Source: an uncultured Bacteroidales bacterium (lineage in GTDB: Bacteria > Bacteroidota > Bacteroidia > Bacteroidales > P3). From it: a stretch of 63,053 bases of DNA. Position numbers and translations under genes: made by a program. Positions within the stretch are counted from its first letter, which is position 1. Each line of letters starts with the position of its first letter. Below, piece by piece: positions 45,545 through 53,820 of the stretch. The notes under the pieces are model-generated. The model worked only from the letters and a program-made list of their open reading frames with translations. It was not told where the DNA came from and ran no database searches. Location: assembly GCA_900318175.1 (NCBI GenBank), contig ONJQ01000028.1, forward strand, positions 1 through 63,053. The letters run 5' to 3'.

Positions 45545-46339
45545 ATGAGACGTCTTTTAATAGCCCTTCTGATGCTCCTTGCCGGCCTTCAGGCTTCGGC
45601 ACAGGTGCCGGCCACCGACTCCTCCGCGAGCCCGTTGCCCTTATTCTCCGTATCGGCCGAATGTCGCGTGCGCTTCGCTCCCGGCAACCTGCAATACCAG
45701 CCCTCCACTCAACTGTGGCGTTTTGCACCCTCGCAAATCGAGACCCTCGGCTGGCAGGAGAAATACTCTTACCCCCGCTACCGCGGATGGATAGACCTCT
45801 TCGGCTACGGCACCGCTCTGCAACCCACCAACTATTCCGTCAGCAGTGCCGAGTATGAGTTCGTCGACTGGGGGCTTTTCTGCGCCCTACCCACGGGTGG
45901 TGGGAAGCAGTGGCGCACCCTGACCACCGCCGAGTGGACCTACCTCCTCAGCCGACGTCCGCATGCCCGCCGGCTCTATGCACTGGCCTACGTCTGCGGT
46001 CAGTACGGGCTCATCCTGCTGCCGGACAACTGGCAGCGGCCCAAAGGCATCTATATGCGCACAGGTCCCAAGGAGGAGGGCACCAACGTCTACAACGAGG
46101 AGCGCTGGAAAGTGCTGGAGGCTGCCGGAGCTGTCTTCCTTCCCGCCGAGGTGCGCCGCGTGGGCACAGAAAGCCAAGGGTCGGCATCCGCCTGCCGTTA
46201 TTGGACCGCCACCACCAATCCCAAAAACCACGCTGAAGCCCTCTACCTGATGGTGGACCCCTACCTGCCGCAGATCAAATCGGCACCCCGCGCCCACGGT
46301 CTCTCAGTCCGCCTGGTGCAGGAGGTTGACAATAATTGA
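45545..46339 (+). CDS. Secreted Bacteroidales protein of unknown function
   Basis: A 264-residue protein with signal peptide 'MRRLLIALLMLLAGLQASAQ'. The mature part has 'VRFAPGNLQYQPSTQLWRFA', 'GWIDLFGYGTALQPTNYS' and 'WRTLTTAEWTYLLSRRP', a motif set that recurs in many Bacteroidales extracellular proteins, and ends 'ARAHGLSVRLV'-like. The pattern has some resemblance to the formylglycine-generating-enzyme/lectin fold, without catalytic cysteines in the expected places. No function is assigned. It sits 18 nt after the membrane protein gene and 17 nt before the cytidylyltransferase gene. Confidence 0.7.
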   Translation: MRRLLIALLMLLAGLQASAQVPATDSSASPLPLFSVSAECRVRFAPGNLQYQPSTQLWRFAPSQIETLGWQEKYSYPRYRGWIDLFGYGTALQPTNYSVSSAEYEFVDWGLFCALPTGGGKQWRTLTTAEWTYLLSRRPHARRLYALAYVCGQYGLILLPDNWQRPKGIYMRTGPKEEGTNVYNEERWKVLEAAGAVFLPAEVRRVGTESQGSASACRYWTATTNPKNHAEALYLMVDPYLPQIKSAPRAHGLSVRLVQEVDNN

Positions 46340-46356
46340 CATTTAGTTTTTTCATC

Positions 46357-47043
46357 ATGAATATTGCAGTCATACTGGCTGGCGGGACAGGCAGCCGCAT
46401 GCATGCCGACCGTCCCAAACAGTTCCTTCCCTTAGAAGACGGGACCGTAATTGAGAAAACCATTGCAGCCTTCGAAGCCGCCCCCGCCATTGACGAGATA
46501 GCCGTGGTAGTACATCCCGACTGGATGGACCACATGCGCGCAATAGCCCAGCGACACAGCTGGCGCAAAGTGGCCAAGCTCGTTGAGGGAGGCGATGAAC
46601 GCTACATGTCATCCCTCAATGCCATAGCGGCCTATCTGGACTACCCCGACGACACCAACCTGCTGATACACGACGGCGCGCGCCCCTGGGTGTCGCAAGC
46701 CATCATTGCACGTGTCGCAGAGGCCCTGCGTGACCACGAGGCCGTGGGTGTGGGCATCCCTGCTACCGACACCGTGTGGGAAGTGCGGCAGGAGATTGAC
46801 CCGCATCTCTCCACCATCATCACACGCATCCCGCTGCGCAGCTCCATGTGGCTTGCTCAGACGCCGCAAGCCTTCCGTCTGCCCCTTATCCGCGACGCCT
46901 ACCAGCACGCCCTGCAGGACCCCTCATTCCGCGCAACGGACGATTGCGGTGTGGTCCGCCGCTACCTCCCCGGCACAAAAATCCACGTAGTCCCAGGCGA
47001 AGAGCAAAACAGGAAAATCACCTTCCCCTCCGATTTGGCTTAA
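46357..47043 (+). CDS. IspD/TarI-family cytidylyltransferase
   Basis: A 228-residue nucleotidyltransferase. 'AVILAGGTGSRMHADRPKQF' is the CTP-binding loop, 'LLIHDGARPWVS' holds the metal-binding Asp, and 'WLAQTPQAFRLPLI' and 'ATDDCGVVRRYL' are the later IspD signatures. IspD makes CDP-methylerythritol for isoprenoids; close relatives (TarI, LicC-like) make CDP-ribitol or similar. The LAGGxGSRM opening is nearer to TarI than to the AAGxGxRM common in IspD, so the substrate stays open. It is last in its operon and about 2.4 kb from the phosphonate operon, which also relies on CTP activation. Confidence 0.85.
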   Translation: MNIAVILAGGTGSRMHADRPKQFLPLEDGTVIEKTIAAFEAAPAIDEIAVVVHPDWMDHMRAIAQRHSWRKVAKLVEGGDERYMSSLNAIAAYLDYPDDTNLLIHDGARPWVSQAIIARVAEALRDHEAVGVGIPATDTVWEVRQEIDPHLSTIITRIPLRSSMWLAQTPQAFRLPLIRDAYQHALQDPSFRATDDCGVVRRYLPGTKIHVVPGEEQNRKITFPSDLA

Positions 47044-47103: not shown

Positions 47104-49347
47104 CTAACGCAGCAGGGTCACGGTTCCTGCCAGGACATTCTCACCTACATCACCCTTTTTGCGATATTTAATTCGGTACACGTAGGTACCCTGTTCGCAG
47201 GGCGTACCATCCATTGTACCATCCCATGACTGGGTTAGGCCGTCGAAATCGACAACAAAGACACCCCAACGATGGTACACTGCGACCTTGGCCTCAGCAA
47301 TGTCCCCACTACAAAAAATGCGGAACCTGCAATTCTCTCCTGCAATATCAGGGGTGAAAACATTGGGCACCCATATGGCAAACGTGTCAACCGAGGGCAT
47401 CGGTTCTTCGGGAGTGCGGGGGCAATGCATGGTATGGAAATTGAGGACGATAATGCTGTCGGCACCGTGCACGTTCTGCAGAAGGTAAGTCGCTATGCTG
47501 TCATACGGGAAGAGAACTCCACGCCAAGCAAAGGGAAGCAGCGTGTCGCACACCGTGGTGTCATAAGTGTGGTTCTCATTGTACCATACCTTCAAACTGA
47601 GAACATTGACGCTGTCGCATCCATAAACAGATTGGAGCTTGAGGGTGTCGTTTTCAACGTCTGAATAAAGTATGCGACCATAGTCCATATATGGCAACGA
47701 GTTCTCCACACAAGTATCATAAACCACACTGAAATAATCAGGGTGCACGTGGATGGTGGTACAAAGCGTGTCATAGTGCCAAGCTCCCTCACCATCCACG
47801 CCATTCACATAGGCACAGACCTCATAATCACCAGCCGAATCGAAAGAATGGGTTGCAGGATTGGGGATTGCCGTCGTCCCGTCGCCAAAAACCCATTGCA
47901 CCGAGAGGCTGTCGTAATCGGCAACCACCTCAAAGCGTACAGCGTCATGCACGCACACGTCAAAGCCATTGAGAAAAGAGGATGCACTAATGGAATTGAC
48001 ATATAAATCGGCAGAATCAGCAGAATGGGAATAGACTTGACGACCTGCAAATCCCAACGAATAGCCATAACTTACACGGTTGCCCGACCCGAAGAGGAAG
48101 GCGACAAACCCCACCTGCCCCGAATCGTAAAGTAAATGTGAACCCTGGGCGAGTGACCTTCGGAGCCATGCATAACCAGGGGCAGATGGCACAGGGGTGA
48201 AATAAGGAGCCATGGGGATTCCGTCAAGATGGATGGTGGAGACGGCAGCAGTGTCGCAGATGACATTTATCCAATGAGAGGTAATGTTTACAGAGGAGAG
48301 CACAGGGAAGCGTATAGTGGTAAAGCTCTGTTCGAGCGGGGTTATTGTAGTCATCGCAGGATCGCCTATTCCTACACCGTTGTAACTTGCTATGTAATGA
48401 TAGACCATTGCGGGTTGGGAAGTTTCGATATAATCAGCCGATGTGGTCGAGTGCATGATATATTGGTGCGTCTCAGCGCGGGAAAGAGTCGCAACAAAGT
48501 CCCCATTCACAAAGACGGTACAATTGTCCGCCATAGCGGTTATCCGCACATAGTCATTCTTTGTCAGATTGGAGGGGGGCACCACAAAACGCTCACCCCA
48601 ACAGTTGATGGGAATGGCCTGCTCGACAACATGGTCACAGCTGGGACCGTGGAGATAGTCCGGAATGTAGACACAGGCATCGCCATTAAAGACAGCAATC
48701 TTTTTGTTGTTCAAAACGGTGATGCGTGTTCCGGACAAATCGCCAGGCGGTACACCGCAGACCTGGCAAACCTGACCGGCATGCGGCAGGGTGACAGTGT
48801 ATGGCTGATAAGCATCGTGGCCACCAATGGTGCCCGCCGTCGGGGTGATAGAAACCGATACATTGTCTTCGGCAGCGACTATTGAGAACTCGGTGCTGTA
48901 ACGTTCGGCAGGGAATGTCTGGACTATATAGTCGGTTCCCAGCATCTGGGTGGGGAGCAAGCAGGTGTAGTCAAGGTTGGGGTACCCCTGTGTGATAGAA
49001 TACAACGAAATGGTATCAGTAGCGGTGACATGGAGGCCGGTGTTGGTAACGATATTTGAAGTGGTAGTGAAAGCTTGGCTGAGAGGGATATAAACCCTGT
49101 TGTCAGTTGTAGGACTGATTGCGAAGGTTTGGCTCCAACCCGTATTGGGATTGGTCACGGTGGCGCTGCAGGGACGGTCGGAAGTGGCGAAAATGCTCAG
49201 GGCCTGTGACCCCATTGTGGTGTCGACATTATCCATGAAAGTGAGCCAGAAATCGGTACCCACAGAGGTTTGAGCCACAGAAAGTTGAGACCCACTCAAC
49301 AGAATGGAGACGAGAAAGAGTATCGTAGTGCGACGAATAGTTTTCAT
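47104..49347 (-). CDS. IgGFc-binding/PKD surface protein with T9SS type B sorting domain
   Basis: A 747-residue secreted protein (signal to 'SQLSVAQ'). Residues about 28-440 match the IgGFc-binding N-terminal domain family: 'SVGTDFWLTFMDN' at the start, 'YSTEFSIVAAEDNVSVSITP' and 'INCWGERFVVPPSN'. A PKD-like domain follows ('VQWVFGDGTTAIPNPATHSF'), then Cys-containing 'YDTCVENSLPYMDYGRILYS'-type repeats. The C-terminal 85 residues ('WVPNVFTPDIAGENCRFRI', 'VYHRWGVFVVDFDG', 'QGTYVYRIKYRKKG') are the gliding-motility-associated CHU_C/type B signal. It is likely a surface adhesin. Its promoter lies almost on the start codon. Confidence 0.9.
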   Translation of the reverse strand: MKTIRRTTILFLVSILLSGSQLSVAQTSVGTDFWLTFMDNVDTTMGSQALSIFATSDRPCSATVTNPNTGWSQTFAISPTTDNRVYIPLSQAFTTTSNIVTNTGLHVTATDTISLYSITQGYPNLDYTCLLPTQMLGTDYIVQTFPAERYSTEFSIVAAEDNVSVSITPTAGTIGGHDAYQPYTVTLPHAGQVCQVCGVPPGDLSGTRITVLNNKKIAVFNGDACVYIPDYLHGPSCDHVVEQAIPINCWGERFVVPPSNLTKNDYVRITAMADNCTVFVNGDFVATLSRAETHQYIMHSTTSADYIETSQPAMVYHYIASYNGVGIGDPAMTTITPLEQSFTTIRFPVLSSVNITSHWINVICDTAAVSTIHLDGIPMAPYFTPVPSAPGYAWLRRSLAQGSHLLYDSGQVGFVAFLFGSGNRVSYGYSLGFAGRQVYSHSADSADLYVNSISASSFLNGFDVCVHDAVRFEVVADYDSLSVQWVFGDGTTAIPNPATHSFDSAGDYEVCAYVNGVDGEGAWHYDTLCTTIHVHPDYFSVVYDTCVENSLPYMDYGRILYSDVENDTLKLQSVYGCDSVNVLSLKVWYNENHTYDTTVCDTLLPFAWRGVLFPYDSIATYLLQNVHGADSIIVLNFHTMHCPRTPEEPMPSVDTFAIWVPNVFTPDIAGENCRFRIFCSGDIAEAKVAVYHRWGVFVVDFDGLTQSWDGTMDGTPCEQGTYVYRIKYRKKGDVGENVLAGTVTLLR

Positions 49348-49351
49348 GATG

Positions 49352-49359
49352 CAAATATA
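49352..49359 (-). promoter_or_regulatory. -7 box immediately before the IgGFc-like gene start
   Basis: TATATTTG followed by CATC and then the ATG, on the minus strand. The expected start of transcription would fall on or near the start codon, implying a leaderless or nearly leaderless mRNA. Confidence 0.5.
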
Positions 49360-49401
49360 CTAATAAAAAACAAAATAATAGGTCAATTGAAAAAAAAAGT
49401 G

Positions 49402-49409
49402 TATTTTTG
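49402..49409 (+). promoter_or_regulatory. -7 box for the phosphonate operon
   Basis: TATTTTTG followed by CA, 65 nt upstream of the ATG at 49475. It is the only good promoter match before the four-gene operon; no clear -33 partner is at standard spacing. Confidence 0.6.
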
Positions 49410-49474
49410 CAAGAAAATATTAATCCATAAAGGAAGTTAACTATCTGAATAGCCTAACAAAAGGAACACATTCT

Positions 49475-50788
49475 ATGGAAAAAAAGACAGTATACGTAGG
49501 GATGAGTGCAGATATGATACATCCCGGACATCTGAATATCATCAAGGAGGCGTGCAAGCTGGGCACGGTGACGGTTGGCGTGCTGACGGATGCCGCCATT
49601 GCAAGCTACAAACGGTTGCCGTACCTGAACTATGAGCAGCGCGCAGAGGTGGTGGCAAGCATCAAAGGCGTGGAGAGGGTTGTGCCCCAGACGACGCTGG
49701 ATTATGTCCCCAACCTGCGCGAGCTGAAGCCGGACTATGTAGTGCACGGGGACGACTGGAAGGAGGGGGTGCAGCAGCAGACGCGCCAACGCATCATCGA
49801 GGTGATGGCGGAGTGGGGCGGAAAAGTGGTGGACATCCCCTACACAAAGGGGTTCTCCTCCACGGCCATGAACCAGCGCCTGAAGGAAATCGGCACGACG
49901 CCCGAAATAAGAATGAAAAGGCTCAGGAGACTGATAGCCGCCAAAAGGATTGTAAGGATCCTGGAGTCGCACAACGGCCTGACGGGCCTGATCATCGAAA
50001 ACACAAGCGTGACGGTGGACGGCATGAGGAGGGAGTTTGACGGGATGTGGGCCAGCTCGCTGACTGACTCGACCAGCAAGGGCAAGCCGGACATCGAGGC
50101 GGTGGACGTGACGACGCGTCTGCACGACCTGAACGACGCGCTTGAGGTGACGACGAAGCCGGTCATCTTCGACGGCGACACGGGGGGCAAGGTGGAGCAC
50201 TTTGTCTTCACGGTGCGCACGCTGGAGCGGCTGGGCATCTCGGCGGTTATCATCGAGGACAAGGTGGGGCTGAAGCAGAACTCGCTCTTCGGCACGGAGG
50301 CTGTGCAAACGCAGGACAGCATCGAGGGCTTCTGCGCCAAGATTCAGGCAGGGAAGCGCGCGCAGGTGACTGACGACTTTATGATCATTGCCCGCATCGA
50401 AAGCCTGATAGCGGGCAAAACGGTGGAGGATGCGCTGCAGCGGGCCCGGGCCTACGTGGCCGCGGGTGCCGACGGCATCATGATCCACAGCCGCAACAGG
50501 GACGGGATGGATGTGAAGGAGTTCTGCCAAAGGTTCCGCAAGGAGAACGCGTCGACGCCCATTGTGGCGGTCCCGACGACCTACAACCAATTCACGGAGG
50601 ATGAGCTGGCGGAGTGGGGAGTGAATGTGGTGATCTACGCCAACCACCTACTGCGGAGCGCCTACCCCGCAATGGTGGACTGCGCAAAGTCCATCCTGAC
50701 GCATGGGCGCAGCTTAGAGGCCTCGGAGCGCTACTGCATGCCCATCAAGGAGATTTTGGAGTTGATCCCCGGCACGAAAAAGGGTTGA
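49475..50788 (+). CDS. Phosphonate cytidylyltransferase - phosphoenolpyruvate mutase fusion
   Basis: A 437-residue cytosolic fusion. Residues 1-135 are a cytidylyltransferase of the GlyCT/TagD fold: '[20 protein letters not shown]' with HPGH at 16-19, and 'KGFSSTAM' where the family has its second CTP motif (ISTT-like). Residues 145-437 are PEP mutase (isocitrate lyase superfamily): '[14 protein letters not shown]' (Mg-binding Asp), the diagnostic '[10 protein letters not shown]' at 261-270, and '[13 protein letters not shown]'. PEP mutase forms the C-P bond of phosphonopyruvate from PEP; the N-terminal domain would activate the final phosphonate as a CMP ester. Use of AGG/AGA Arg codons (about 49908-49965) is higher than in the neighbours. 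Confidence 0.93.
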
Positions 50789-50817
50789 CGGGAGAGTGAA
50801 GGACTGTGAAAAAAAAC

Positions 50818-50852
50818 GGGCTGTCGGCAGCACACTTGACCGCCGCCAGCCC
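50818..50852 (+). other. Intercistronic stem-loop between PEP mutase and decarboxylase genes
   Basis: GGGCTG-CGGC (50818-50828) can pair with GCCG-CAGCCC (50842-50852) with one mismatch. It lies in the 97-nt gap, the only sizeable gap of the operon, and has no T-run. It could tune expression of the downstream genes. Confidence 0.4.
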
Positions 50853-50885
50853 CGCAGGTGAGAGAAAAAGAAAAGGAAATTGAGT

Positions 50886-52031
50886 ATGATTAAGCCAGAA
50901 TTTTTTGTAACAGAGCTGTTGTCGGCGGGGGTCGACTTTTTTGCCGGGGTGCCGGACTCGCTGCTGAAGAGCATGTGCGCCTACATCACGGAGCGTGTGG
51001 ATGCCGACCGCCACGTAATCACCGCCAACGAAGGGGGAGCCGTGGCCCTGGCCACGGGCTACCATCTGGCCACGGGGGGCATAGGCTGCGTCTATATGCA
51101 GAACTCGGGCTTGGGAAATGTGGTCAACCCGCTGGCCTCGCTGACGGACAGGGAGGTCTACCACATACCGATGCTGCTAATTGTGGGATGGCGCGGACGC
51201 CCCGGCGTGCACGACGAACCCCAGCACGTGAAACAGGGCAAGGTGACAACGGGACTGCTGAACGTGATGGGCGTGAACTACGAGGTGCTGAGCCACGACG
51301 AGACGGTTGCCGCGCGCCAGATTGCCCATGCCGTAAGGGAAATCAAGGAGCGGGGCGACGTGTTCGCCCTTGTGGTTGAGAAGGACACTTTTGAGCCATA
51401 CGCACTGACTGTCCCCACACCCACGTCCGATTGGGAGCTGAGCCGCGAGGAGGCCATCGCGCACGTGGCGCGCGGCGCGGAACCCGACGCCGTCATGGTG
51501 AGCACCACGGGCATGATAAGCCGCGAGCTGTTTGAGTACCGTGCCCGGAAGGGCGAAGGGCACGAGCGGGACTTCCTGACCGTGGGGTCCATGGGCCACG
51601 CATCGCAGATAGCCCTGGGTGTGGCCATGCAGCAAAGCGGGCGACGGGTCTACTGCATGGACGGCGACGGGGCCGCAATCATGCACATGGGTTCCATGGC
51701 CATTGTCGGCAGCCGCAAGCCGCGGAACCTTGTCCACATCGTGTTCAACAACGGTGCGCACGACAGCGTCGGCGGCCAGCCCACGGTGGGGTTTGACATT
51801 GACCTTGTGCAGATAGCCACCGCTTGCGGCTACCGCAAAGCGATACGAATAGAGAGCCTCGCGGAGCTGGAGGCCCTCCCCTCGAAACTGAAGGGGACGG
51901 AGGGACCCATCTTTGTCGAAATCCGCGTGCGGAAGGGGAACAGGAAGGACCTGGGCCGCCCCACCACCACCCCGATTGAGAACAAGGAGGCGCTGATGAA
52001 TTTTTTGAAGAAAGGAGCGCCCGAAGCATGA
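50886..52031 (+). CDS. Phosphonopyruvate decarboxylase
   Basis: A 381-residue thiamine-diphosphate enzyme. The N-terminal pyrimidine-binding half has 'FFAGVPDSLLKSMCAY' and the cofactor-activating Glu in 'ITANEGGAVALATGYHLATG'. The C-terminal half has the ThDP motif 'MDGDGAAIMHMGSMAI' through 'VFNNGAHDSVGGQP' (about 256-300). It decarboxylates phosphonopyruvate to phosphonoacetaldehyde, the irreversible step that pulls the unfavourable PEP mutase reaction. The ATG at 50886 follows an AAAAGGAAA Shine-Dalgarno-like run; a TTG two codons earlier is less likely. It overlaps the next gene by ATGA. Confidence 0.94.
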   Translation: MIKPEFFVTELLSAGVDFFAGVPDSLLKSMCAYITERVDADRHVITANEGGAVALATGYHLATGGIGCVYMQNSGLGNVVNPLASLTDREVYHIPMLLIVGWRGRPGVHDEPQHVKQGKVTTGLLNVMGVNYEVLSHDETVAARQIAHAVREIKERGDVFALVVEKDTFEPYALTVPTPTSDWELSREEAIAHVARGAEPDAVMVSTTGMISRELFEYRARKGEGHERDFLTVGSMGHASQIALGVAMQQSGRRVYCMDGDGAAIMHMGSMAIVGSRKPRNLVHIVFNNGAHDSVGGQPTVGFDIDLVQIATACGYRKAIRIESLAELEALPSKLKGTEGPIFVEIRVRKGNRKDLGRPTTTPIENKEALMNFLKKGAPEA

Positions 52032-53125
52032 GCCAACAGATAGTGTGGGGCATCGACCGCCTGCAGACCCTTCCCCCCGTGGCTGCGGGAGTCAAGGTGA
52101 TGCTTGTGGCGGACTCCTCTTTCCCCTACCTCAGCATCCGCCGCCGGATTGAAGAGAGTCTCGGCCCGCACGTGGGGTTCGACGCCTTCGGCTCCAACCC
52201 CCTCTACGAGGATGTGTGCAAGGGCGTAGAGTTGTTTGTAAAAGAGGGCTGCGCGGCAATAGTGGCCGTAGGCGGAGGCAGCAGCATCGACGTTGCCAAA
52301 TGCATCAAACTGTTCTGTCGCCTGGCTCCCGGCACCGACTACTTGAAAGCTGAATGGGGGGACAGCCGCGTTCCCCTCATCGCCATCCCCACCACCGCCG
52401 GCACAGGGAGCGAGTCCACGCGCTACGCCGTCATCTACCGCGACGGGGCCAAACAGTCCGTGGCCCACAGCAGCATCGTCCCCGACTATGCCCTGCTGGA
52501 ACCCGCCGCGCTTTCCACTCTGCCCCTCTATCAAAAAAAATGCACCCTCCTCGACGCCCTCAGCCAGGGCATAGAGTCGTGGTGGTCCGTCAACTCCACC
52601 GACGAGTCCATCAGCCACTCCACCTATGCCGTGGAAACCATCATGGCAAATATGGGCCGTTATCTGTCCGGCGACGCTGACGCTGCGCGGGCCATCATGG
52701 ACGCTGCCAACCGTGCGGGGCAAGCCATCAACATCACCCAGACCACCGCCCCCCACGCCTTCAGCTATAAGCTCACCTCACTCTATTCGTTGCCCCACGG
52801 CCATGCCGTGGCCCTCTGCCTTCCCCCCATCTGGCGCTACATGCTTGCCAACGGTTCCAGATGCACCGACCCACGCGGATGGGAGCACCTGCAAAGTGTG
52901 TTCGAATCAATCTCGCATGCCATGCAATGCGACAGCGCGCTCGACGCTGTCTCCCTGTTCCAATCCCTGCTGTCTAAGCTCGGGATGCAGCGTCCGCACA
53001 CCGATACGCCTGAGCGCGACCTCACATTGCTTTCACAAACCGTCAACCCCGTGAGGCTGAAGAACAGCCCCGTTGCGATTGACCAAACTGCAGCCTACGC
53101 AATCTATAAAACAATCCTCCTATGA
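52028..53125 (+). CDS. Phosphonoacetaldehyde reductase (iron-containing ADH family)
   Basis: A 365-residue member of group III alcohol dehydrogenases. 'IVAVGGGSSIDVAKCIK' (82-88) and 'AIPTTAGTGSES' (121-129) bind NAD(P). Metal ligands expected are Asp176 in 'LLDALSQGIESWW', His243 in 'APHAFSY' and His257 in 'LPHGHAVAL'; the usual first His ligand (DALxH) is Gln180 here. Its place after phosphonopyruvate decarboxylase indicates reduction of phosphonoacetaldehyde to 2-hydroxyethylphosphonate. It overlaps both neighbours by 4 nt. The substrate is inferred from context. Confidence 0.88.
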   Translation: MSQQIVWGIDRLQTLPPVAAGVKVMLVADSSFPYLSIRRRIEESLGPHVGFDAFGSNPLYEDVCKGVELFVKEGCAAIVAVGGGSSIDVAKCIKLFCRLAPGTDYLKAEWGDSRVPLIAIPTTAGTGSESTRYAVIYRDGAKQSVAHSSIVPDYALLEPAALSTLPLYQKKCTLLDALSQGIESWWSVNSTDESISHSTYAVETIMANMGRYLSGDADAARAIMDAANRAGQAINITQTTAPHAFSYKLTSLYSLPHGHAVALCLPPIWRYMLANGSRCTDPRGWEHLQSVFESISHAMQCDSALDAVSLFQSLLSKLGMQRPHTDTPERDLTLLSQTVNPVRLKNSPVAIDQTAAYAIYKTILL

Positions 53126-53820
53126 ACAGAGATCTCTTGGTGCGCCTCGCCATTAAGACGGGGCTCTACCCCAGCATGATGAAGCTGGACAATCGGATAC
53201 AGATGCACCGCCAGAACAAGGCCTTCGCCCAATACGGCCTCGAAACCCTGCAGCAGGCCGACGCGGCAGCCACCGAGGCCCAATGCCGCCTCTTCCTCAC
53301 CTTCGGAACCCTGCTGGGGGCTTACCGCAACAAGGGGTTTATCCCCTACGACTGCGATTTGGACACGGGCATGATGCACAGCGAGTACAACGATGACTTC
53401 ATTCCGTGTATGGAACGGGCCGGGCTGAAACACATACGCCGTTATTACGTGAAGGCGACGGGCCGCATCTGCGAGGATAAGTTTGACTATAAGGGTGTGC
53501 ATATCGACGTCCATCATTATTACCCCGACGGCGAGGGGAACCTGTATTGCGACCTTTGTCTGCCCCATGAATCAAAGGACTGGCGCACCGCCAACAAGAC
53601 GGACGGTTTCCCCTCCATCATCCGGACGTGCCCGGACACGGAACTGGAACGGACCCCATTTCTCGGCATTGAGTGCTACAGGCCCGTGAAGACTGTCGAA
53701 TGGTTGAAAACGCTATATGGCGAACATTTTATGACCCCTGACCCGAAATGGTCTATGAACGACCATAAGCAACGGGCTCAGAGCCATGGAGAGCGTCTGT
53801 TTAGGATAGAATATCGGTAG
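53122..53820 (+). CDS. LicD-family (phospho/phosphono) transferase
   Basis: A 232-residue protein with the LicD core 'FLTFGTLLGAYRNKGFIPYD' followed by CDLD (62-81): a GTxLG loop and paired acidic residues of the nucleotidyltransferase fold. 'DYKGVHIDVHHYYPDG' gives the second acidic strand. LicD proteins transfer phosphocholine from CDP-choline to surface sugars. Here, last in a phosphonate operon and coupled by ATGA, it is the likely transferase that moves the CMP-activated phosphonate to a glycan or lipid. Acceptor unknown. Confidence 0.88.
   Translation: MNRDLLVRLAIKTGLYPSMMKLDNRIQMHRQNKAFAQYGLETLQQADAAATEAQCRLFLTFGTLLGAYRNKGFIPYDCDLDTGMMHSEYNDDFIPCMERAGLKHIRRYYVKATGRICEDKFDYKGVHIDVHHYYPDGEGNLYCDLCLPHESKDWRTANKTDGFPSIIRTCPDTELERTPFLGIECYRPVKTVEWLKTLYGEHFMTPDPKWSMNDHKQRAQSHGERLFRIEYR

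Follow-up and report, generated by a model that had tools for sequence, protein, structure and literature searches.

What does a compact phosphonate operon in an uncultured Bacteroidales bacterium make, and to what is the product attached? The operon consists of four genes at 49475-53820 on the forward strand of a 63,053-nucleotide (nt) stretch of DNA (contig ONJQ01000028.1, assembly GCA_900318175.1), the whole of which is called the window here. A first-pass annotation read these genes as a complete route to a surface phosphonate. Our analysis indicates that the operon probably makes 2-hydroxyethylphosphonate (HEP), activates it as the cytidine monophosphate (CMP) derivative CMP-HEP and transfers it to an acceptor. 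The preference for HEP over 2-aminoethylphosphonate (AEP), together with CMP activation and transfer by LicD, had already been proposed in that annotation and is the best-supported reading when relatives are compared. The enzyme activities and a carbon-phosphorus product in this organism are predictions from sequence.

Four genes and a predicted route to CMP-HEP

All four genes are open without internal stops, and the families on which the proposed route was built (TIGR02320, TIGR03297, PF00465 and PF04991) were confirmed. Gene 1 (49475..50788, +) encodes a Fom1-type bifunctional protein of 437 residues, in which Pfam places CTP_transf_like (PF01467) at residues 11-131 and PEP_mutase (PF13714) at residues 150-408. 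Its score against TIGR02320 PEP_mutase (410.7 bits) exceeds the equivalog cut-off of 319.55. The phosphoenolpyruvate (PEP) mutase motif lies at residues 261-270, and the motif EDKxxxxxNS is present in all 107 distinct fusions of our comparison set. The cytidylyltransferase domain spans about residues 1-139, with HPGH at 16-19 and HGDDW at 91-95. These 139 residues match PDB entry 5x3d with an E value of 5.9e-59 and 88 identities (63%). The PDB labels this entry only as PEP phosphomutase; we take it to be the cytidylyltransferase domain of Fom1. At 62 positions the residue is at least 94% conserved in the 65 two-domain reductase-type fusions described below and common to 5x3d; the window protein keeps all 62 and has the HxGH motif. 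The N-terminal domain of Fom1 makes CMP-HEP, according to passages of PMC6697681 and PMC8976061. The activation step thus has a characterised precedent, and the domain in gene 1 is predicted to activate HEP as CMP-HEP.

Gene 2 (50886..52031, +) is a thiamine diphosphate (ThDP)-dependent phosphonopyruvate decarboxylase, with 514.8 bits against TIGR03297 (equivalog cut-off 312.5). Comparison with relatives makes the ATG at 50886 a likelier start than the listed TTG at 50880; the gap from gene 1 is 97 nt or 91 nt, respectively. Gene 3 (52028..53125, +) is an iron-type alcohol dehydrogenase (PF00465, 118.9 bits, gathering cut-off 31.3). It is 50% identical to a Segatella copri protein annotated as phosphonoacetaldehyde reductase in a plasmid record, and we infer that phosphonoacetaldehyde is its substrate. 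Gene 4 (53122..53820, +) encodes a short LicD-family protein, a predicted CMP-HEP:acceptor transferase. The reported 4-nt overlaps among the last three genes are indeed present, between genes 2 and 3 and between genes 3 and 4.

In the proposed route, PEP mutase would convert PEP to phosphonopyruvate, the ThDP enzyme would decarboxylate this to phosphonoacetaldehyde, and the iron-type dehydrogenase would reduce the aldehyde to HEP. The N-terminal domain of gene 1 would then form CMP-HEP from HEP and cytidine triphosphate. LicD, with a DxDxD metal site, would move the HEP phosphonyl group from CMP to an acceptor hydroxyl, most likely on a sugar of a surface glycan, and release CMP.

HEP is also a known branch point, as passages of PMC9381506 and PMC8976061 have it, and might be only an intermediate to methylphosphonate, hydroxymethylphosphonate or a small secreted compound. 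We consider this quite unlikely. The operon terminates in a transferase gene, and no further phosphonate-tailoring enzyme, Fom3 and Fom4 included, was found among the 12 neighbours scanned (MpnS, HepD, Fom3 and Fom4 were not searched genome-wide). In addition, the HEP dioxygenase assay described in part of PMC8976061 used Fe(II) and O2, and such an enzyme would be unlikely in a gut-type anaerobe.

Reductase and transaminase versions of the core

The product could instead be AEP, formed by a transaminase encoded elsewhere in the genome, with the dehydrogenase serving another role. AEP is the surface phosphonate given as the typical case in PMC6697681, and same-genus relatives carry a transaminase version of the operon. 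However, no PhnW/AepZ transaminase scored over the cut-off genome-wide (best 41.5 bits versus 360.8), which agrees with the annotated lack of a PhnW-type aminotransferase; the assembly is 91.78% complete, so absences from it are provisional. The 4-nt overlaps also embed the dehydrogenase in the operon. Further evidence against AEP came from the relatives, and we regard this alternative as very unlikely.

The comparison set held 136 stretches, namely the window and 135 fetched loci (the best 80 of the 327 stretches found in a scan of species genomes, 54 further stretches and a Segatella copri plasmid stretch), with some genomes present from two collections. PEP mutase (PepM) is followed by the decarboxylase (Ppd) and the iron-type dehydrogenase as the next two labelled genes in 88 of the 136, so that this order is not accidental. 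With profiles made from these loci, the 107 distinct fusions were sorted according to which partner gene lies within 5 kb; for the reductase, transaminase, PntC-like and CDP-alcohol (cytidine diphosphate-alcohol) transferase labels, representatives were checked against Pfam or NCBIfam. A transaminase representative gave 466 bits against TIGR03301 (cut-off 360.8).

HxGH is retained in 69 of 70 reductase-type fusions and in 4 of 24 transaminase-type fusions; 20 of the latter have lost it and the 4 that keep it carry other substitutions. The reductase type comprises 65 two-domain proteins, all with HxGH (63 HPGH, 2 HTGH), and 5 triple fusions that carry a MobA-like domain at the N-terminus in addition (4 HSGH, 1 NSAH). 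Among the transaminase type, HPGL is found in all 18 fusions that lie within 5 kb of a separate PntC-like transferase gene, and the remaining six are HPGL (1), HPGI (1) or HHGH (4). Over the whole fetched stretch, a separate PntC-like gene accompanies 19 of 24 transaminase-type and none of 70 reductase-type fusions. A CDP-alcohol phosphatidyltransferase-like gene, identified with our own profiles, is present in 15 of 24 and 0 of 70, respectively. These two contrasts suggest that the versions may also differ in acceptor. The simplest reading of these sequences is that the fused cytidylyltransferase would serve HEP, and that with AEP it would decay or change while a PntC-like enzyme mostly takes over.

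We consider it slightly more likely than not that the surface-phosphonate system of Bacteroidota is modular and exchangeable, with a single cytidylyltransferase-PepM plus Ppd core that is switched between HEP and AEP, and that the LicD of the window is specific for CMP-HEP. The HEP version would combine a reductase, a working Fom1-type cytidylyltransferase and a soluble LicD or CDP-glycerol-transferase-like protein. The AEP version would have a transaminase, an inactivated or altered fused cytidylyltransferase, usually a separate PF12804 cytidylyltransferase and often a membrane CDP-alcohol transferase.

Some loci show further variation. In the four HHGH proteins, HGTDW replaces HGDDW and serine replaces the lysine of YKRLP; L154-L157, a separate transaminase clade, keep HHGH with HGTDW and FSRIP or YSRMP, and their cytidylyltransferase is perhaps AEP-specific. 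Transaminase-type loci such as L056, L064, L067 and L074 have a gene for a CDP-alcohol phosphatidyltransferase-like protein; three of them (L056, L067 and L074) add one for a lysylphosphatidylglycerol-synthase-TM-like protein (Pfam on L067 only), which suggests phosphonolipids as products of AEP-type clusters. L173 has an HPGI fusion, two transaminase-like genes and an additional separate cytidylyltransferase-like open reading frame nearby. In L050, L052, L063 and L069 (PepM at about 7995), HPGL fusions occur without reductase or transaminase, and Ppd is followed by a calcineurin-like phosphoesterase, an NAD-dependent epimerase-like gene and, further on, a DUF6564 gene (families tested on L063, assigned by sequence cluster in the others); these loci possibly make a third phosphonate product. 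The Segatella copri fusion (L178, 7284-9293) is the triple fusion with NSAH.

The predicted transferase and its likely acceptor

Gene 4 scores 42.4 bits against LicD PF04991 (gathering cut-off 22.6). D77, D79 and D81 are invariant across 20 aligned sequences, gene 4 included, and the protein has an FKRP-like nucleotidyltransferase fold. FKRP, the human ribitol-phosphate transferase, shares this fold and transfer from a CDP-alcohol, and a sequence alignment below threshold also shows the acidic DxDxD motif in common; it differs in donor and is only about 20% identical to the window LicD. Counting the window, 38 of 70 reductase-type fusions have a LicD gene directly behind the operon core (20 LicD genes of the window type and 18 canonical ones); in 9 of 70, L178 among them, the gene in this slot scores over the cut-off of PF04464 (CDP-glycerol glycerophosphotransferase), some weakly. 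The LicD and PF04464 families both use CDP-activated alcohols, and finding the two in one slot argues for a CMP-activated donor. We infer that LicD uses CMP-HEP; to our knowledge, no CMP-HEP-specific phosphonyltransferase has been characterised. In L161, also reductase-type, the slot holds an RmlA-like sugar nucleotidyltransferase that passes the PF12804 cut-off and has no match to the PntC-like profile.

LicD might also be an unrelated neighbour that moves phosphocholine or another CDP-alcohol, with the phosphonate attached otherwise or not at all. The family includes phosphocholine transferases, and the genus also has more distant LicD homologues (30-36% identity), some of them in genomes that lack PepM. 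Against this, gene 4 overlaps gene 3 by 4 nt, the 16 genus genomes with a close homologue all carry the dehydrogenase, and many relatives have a different LicD type or a PF04464 protein in the slot. We think an unrelated LicD unlikely, and prefer transfer of HEP from CMP-HEP.

As to the acceptor, the first-pass annotation had predicted that the group decorates the cell surface. The reductase version of Segatella copri DSM 18205 is followed by a gene of the CDP-glycerol glycerophosphotransferase family and by genes for an O-antigen polymerase, a flippase and glycosyltransferases; it thus stands within a glycan biosynthesis locus, as the window operon does not. This arrangement makes a surface glycan the likely acceptor in general, and it is the predicted acceptor in the window. 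Surface decoration is in keeping with the glycan genes around some relatives' operons, and finds no counterpart among the window's own neighbours.

Several observations weigh against a reading in which a reductase, a Fom1-type cytidylyltransferase and LicD act together on HEP. Although TIGR03405 (PsrA-type phosphonate iron-type dehydrogenase) is the top of 16 NCBIfam models for gene 3, the score is 153.5 bits against a cut-off of 423.7; gene 3 was thus not assigned to it and is kept as a predicted phosphonoacetaldehyde reductase. The Segatella copri relative of gene 3 scores slightly higher on two other iron-type dehydrogenase models. In the triple fusions (L130-L132, L174 and L178) a reductase is present, the cytidylyltransferase has drifted and its SST motif is lost; HEP may be activated by the MobA-like domain of these proteins. 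Neither neighbour is present for 13 fusions, some of them at contig ends; 5 of the 13 keep HxGH (all HPGH), 7 are HPGL and 1 is unreadable. PF04991 matches gene 4 over only 35 of 227 profile positions. The slot gene belongs to another or no Pfam family in 11 of 70 reductase-type loci (flippase, capsule synthesis, glycosyltransferase, sugar oxidoreductase and others), and the count of 70 includes 9 loci not tested with Pfam and 3 at contig ends. No glycan family was found by Pfam among the 12 neighbours in the window.

The phylogeny also limits the covariation. A quick PepM-only tree (LG+G4), in which 50 of the 104 inner branches are open and long branches gave a warning, has 3 partner switches and 2 changes in the final His of HxGH. 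Two of three independent pairs agree and the third, in most pairings, shows no difference; at the third switch the transaminase clade retains HxGH. A count of 50/50 versus 20/20 in the first 80 loci has been superseded by the wider set with its exceptions. With three partner changes and a sign test that is not significant, we rejected the correlation as a strong statistical result and use the covariation as supporting evidence only. The sign test could reach 0.05 only with six or more switches that agree. The check proposed in the first-pass annotation, comparison of the operon across Bacteroidales genomes, favours HEP and does not give significant covariation.

Distribution, neighbourhood and known systems

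The annotation had presented the operon as a minimal phosphonate tailoring system in a Bacteroidales. That it is a singular case or a rarity was rejected. Relatives of the fusion are encoded in 327 stretches from a scan of 84,980 species genomes; among the best 80, going by record titles, one is from a spirochaete and the rest are from Bacteroidota, some Candidatus names included. Evenly drawn samples of genomes gave matches at E 1e-20 in 13 of 395 for the phylum (7 over nearly the full fusion length), 20 of 393 for the order (18 nearly full length) and 30 of 99 for the genus. The operon is thus widespread but patchy. Close dehydrogenases (at least 51% identity) occur in 24 of the 99 genus genomes, all PepM-positive, and close LicD proteins (at least 57%) in 16, all with the dehydrogenase; of the remaining six PepM-positive genomes, five are transaminase-type and one is cut by a contig end. 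In G797, PepM-Ppd and dehydrogenase-LicD lie on separate contigs. A two-domain and a triple fusion, both reductase-type, stand about 51 kb apart on contig C20 of G810, and G837 has two transaminase-type fusion copies (contigs C3 and C10). By record title, carriers include rumen and faecal Bacteroidales, Segatella copri DSM 18205, Bacteroides propionicigenes NSJ-90, Capnocytophaga cynodegmi DSM 19736 and strains of Marinifilum and Ancylomarina.

The source genome has one PepM and one IspD above cut-off, two LicD proteins and two iron-type alcohol dehydrogenases. PhnJ of C-P lyase was not found in it (other phosphonate-degrading enzymes were not searched). The 12 neighbours include ispD, a type IX secretion protein, an M23 peptidase protein, phosphofructokinase and LplA, and four have no family. 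The ispD gene (46336..47043, +) was considered as a dedicated second cytidylyltransferase and rejected; as the sole IspD above cut-off it is taken as a housekeeping gene outside this chemistry. It lies 2.4 kb upstream of PepM in the window, and within 60 nt upstream of PepM, or overlapping it, in 11 of 107 fusions. Between ispD and the operon is a type IX secretion (type B) protein with IgGFc-binding and PKD domains (47104-49347, -), with homologues at the same position in L003, L004 and L006. The A+T-rich divergent intergenic region of 127 nt (49348..49474) may hold promoters of Bacteroidota type: TAnnTTTG, which we take to be that consensus, occurs once per strand (49352-49359, -; 49402-49409, +), and the window has 24 copies versus 19.0 expected, so that promoter support is weak. 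A scan for sigma-70-type promoters and terminators gave nothing usable. G+C is 59.8% in the operon, 55.3% in the window and 55.5% in the LicD gene alone.

Among known systems, the fosfomycin pathway of Streptomyces has the decarboxylase Fom2 and the reductase FomC, and methylation and epoxidation genes follow the early steps; the window operon ends in LicD instead, and its CMP-HEP would be a transfer donor rather than a transient antibiotic intermediate. Work by Yu (2014) reportedly described phosphonoglycans of Glycomyces and Stackebrandtia with the phosphonate, said to be HEP, on the glycan; these are Actinobacteria, and the likeness is by description, not by enzyme comparison. Bacteroides fragilis uses the same first two enzymes as the window operon for its capsule and attaches AEP, whereas HEP is predicted here. 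Its AEP-modified capsular polysaccharide is likewise a surface glycan of the Bacteroidales, as noted in part of PMC6697681. Fom1 shares with gene 1 the N-terminal cytidylyltransferase fused to PEP mutase (passages of PMC6697681 and PMC8976061).

The Pnt pathway of Rice et al. (2019, PMC6697681) shares, in the sections of that paper describing it, PEP mutase with a fused cytidylyltransferase, CMP activation and nearby LicD-like transferases or glycosyltransferases; PF01467 fusions make up 23.6% of Ppm proteins there. The characterised PntC enzymes described there belong to PF12804 and prefer AEP, whereas the window has PF01467 and a reductase, from which HEP is predicted. None of the four operon proteins contains PF12804 by Pfam, and the operon does not belong to the Pnt pathway as characterised (AEP, with a PF12804 PntC and an AEP transaminase). 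We regard the operon as an HEP variant within a known class of surface phosphonate pathways, and it is more common than first held. As far as our searches show, the new element is how relatives sort by the state of the fused cytidylyltransferase, the partner enzyme (reductase or transaminase) and the kind of transferase. No earlier description of an HEP operon with LicD in Bacteroidales was found in the open literature, which is weak evidence of novelty.

Rice et al. (2019, PMC6697681) describe as enigmatic the tailoring that follows formation of the C-P bond. That study characterised AEP-type enzymes, and the four-gene operon offers a compact test case for the HEP version of tailoring. If the prediction is true, a pool of HEP-bearing glycans in the anaerobic gut would matter for host-microbe contact and for the question of where phosphonates originate.
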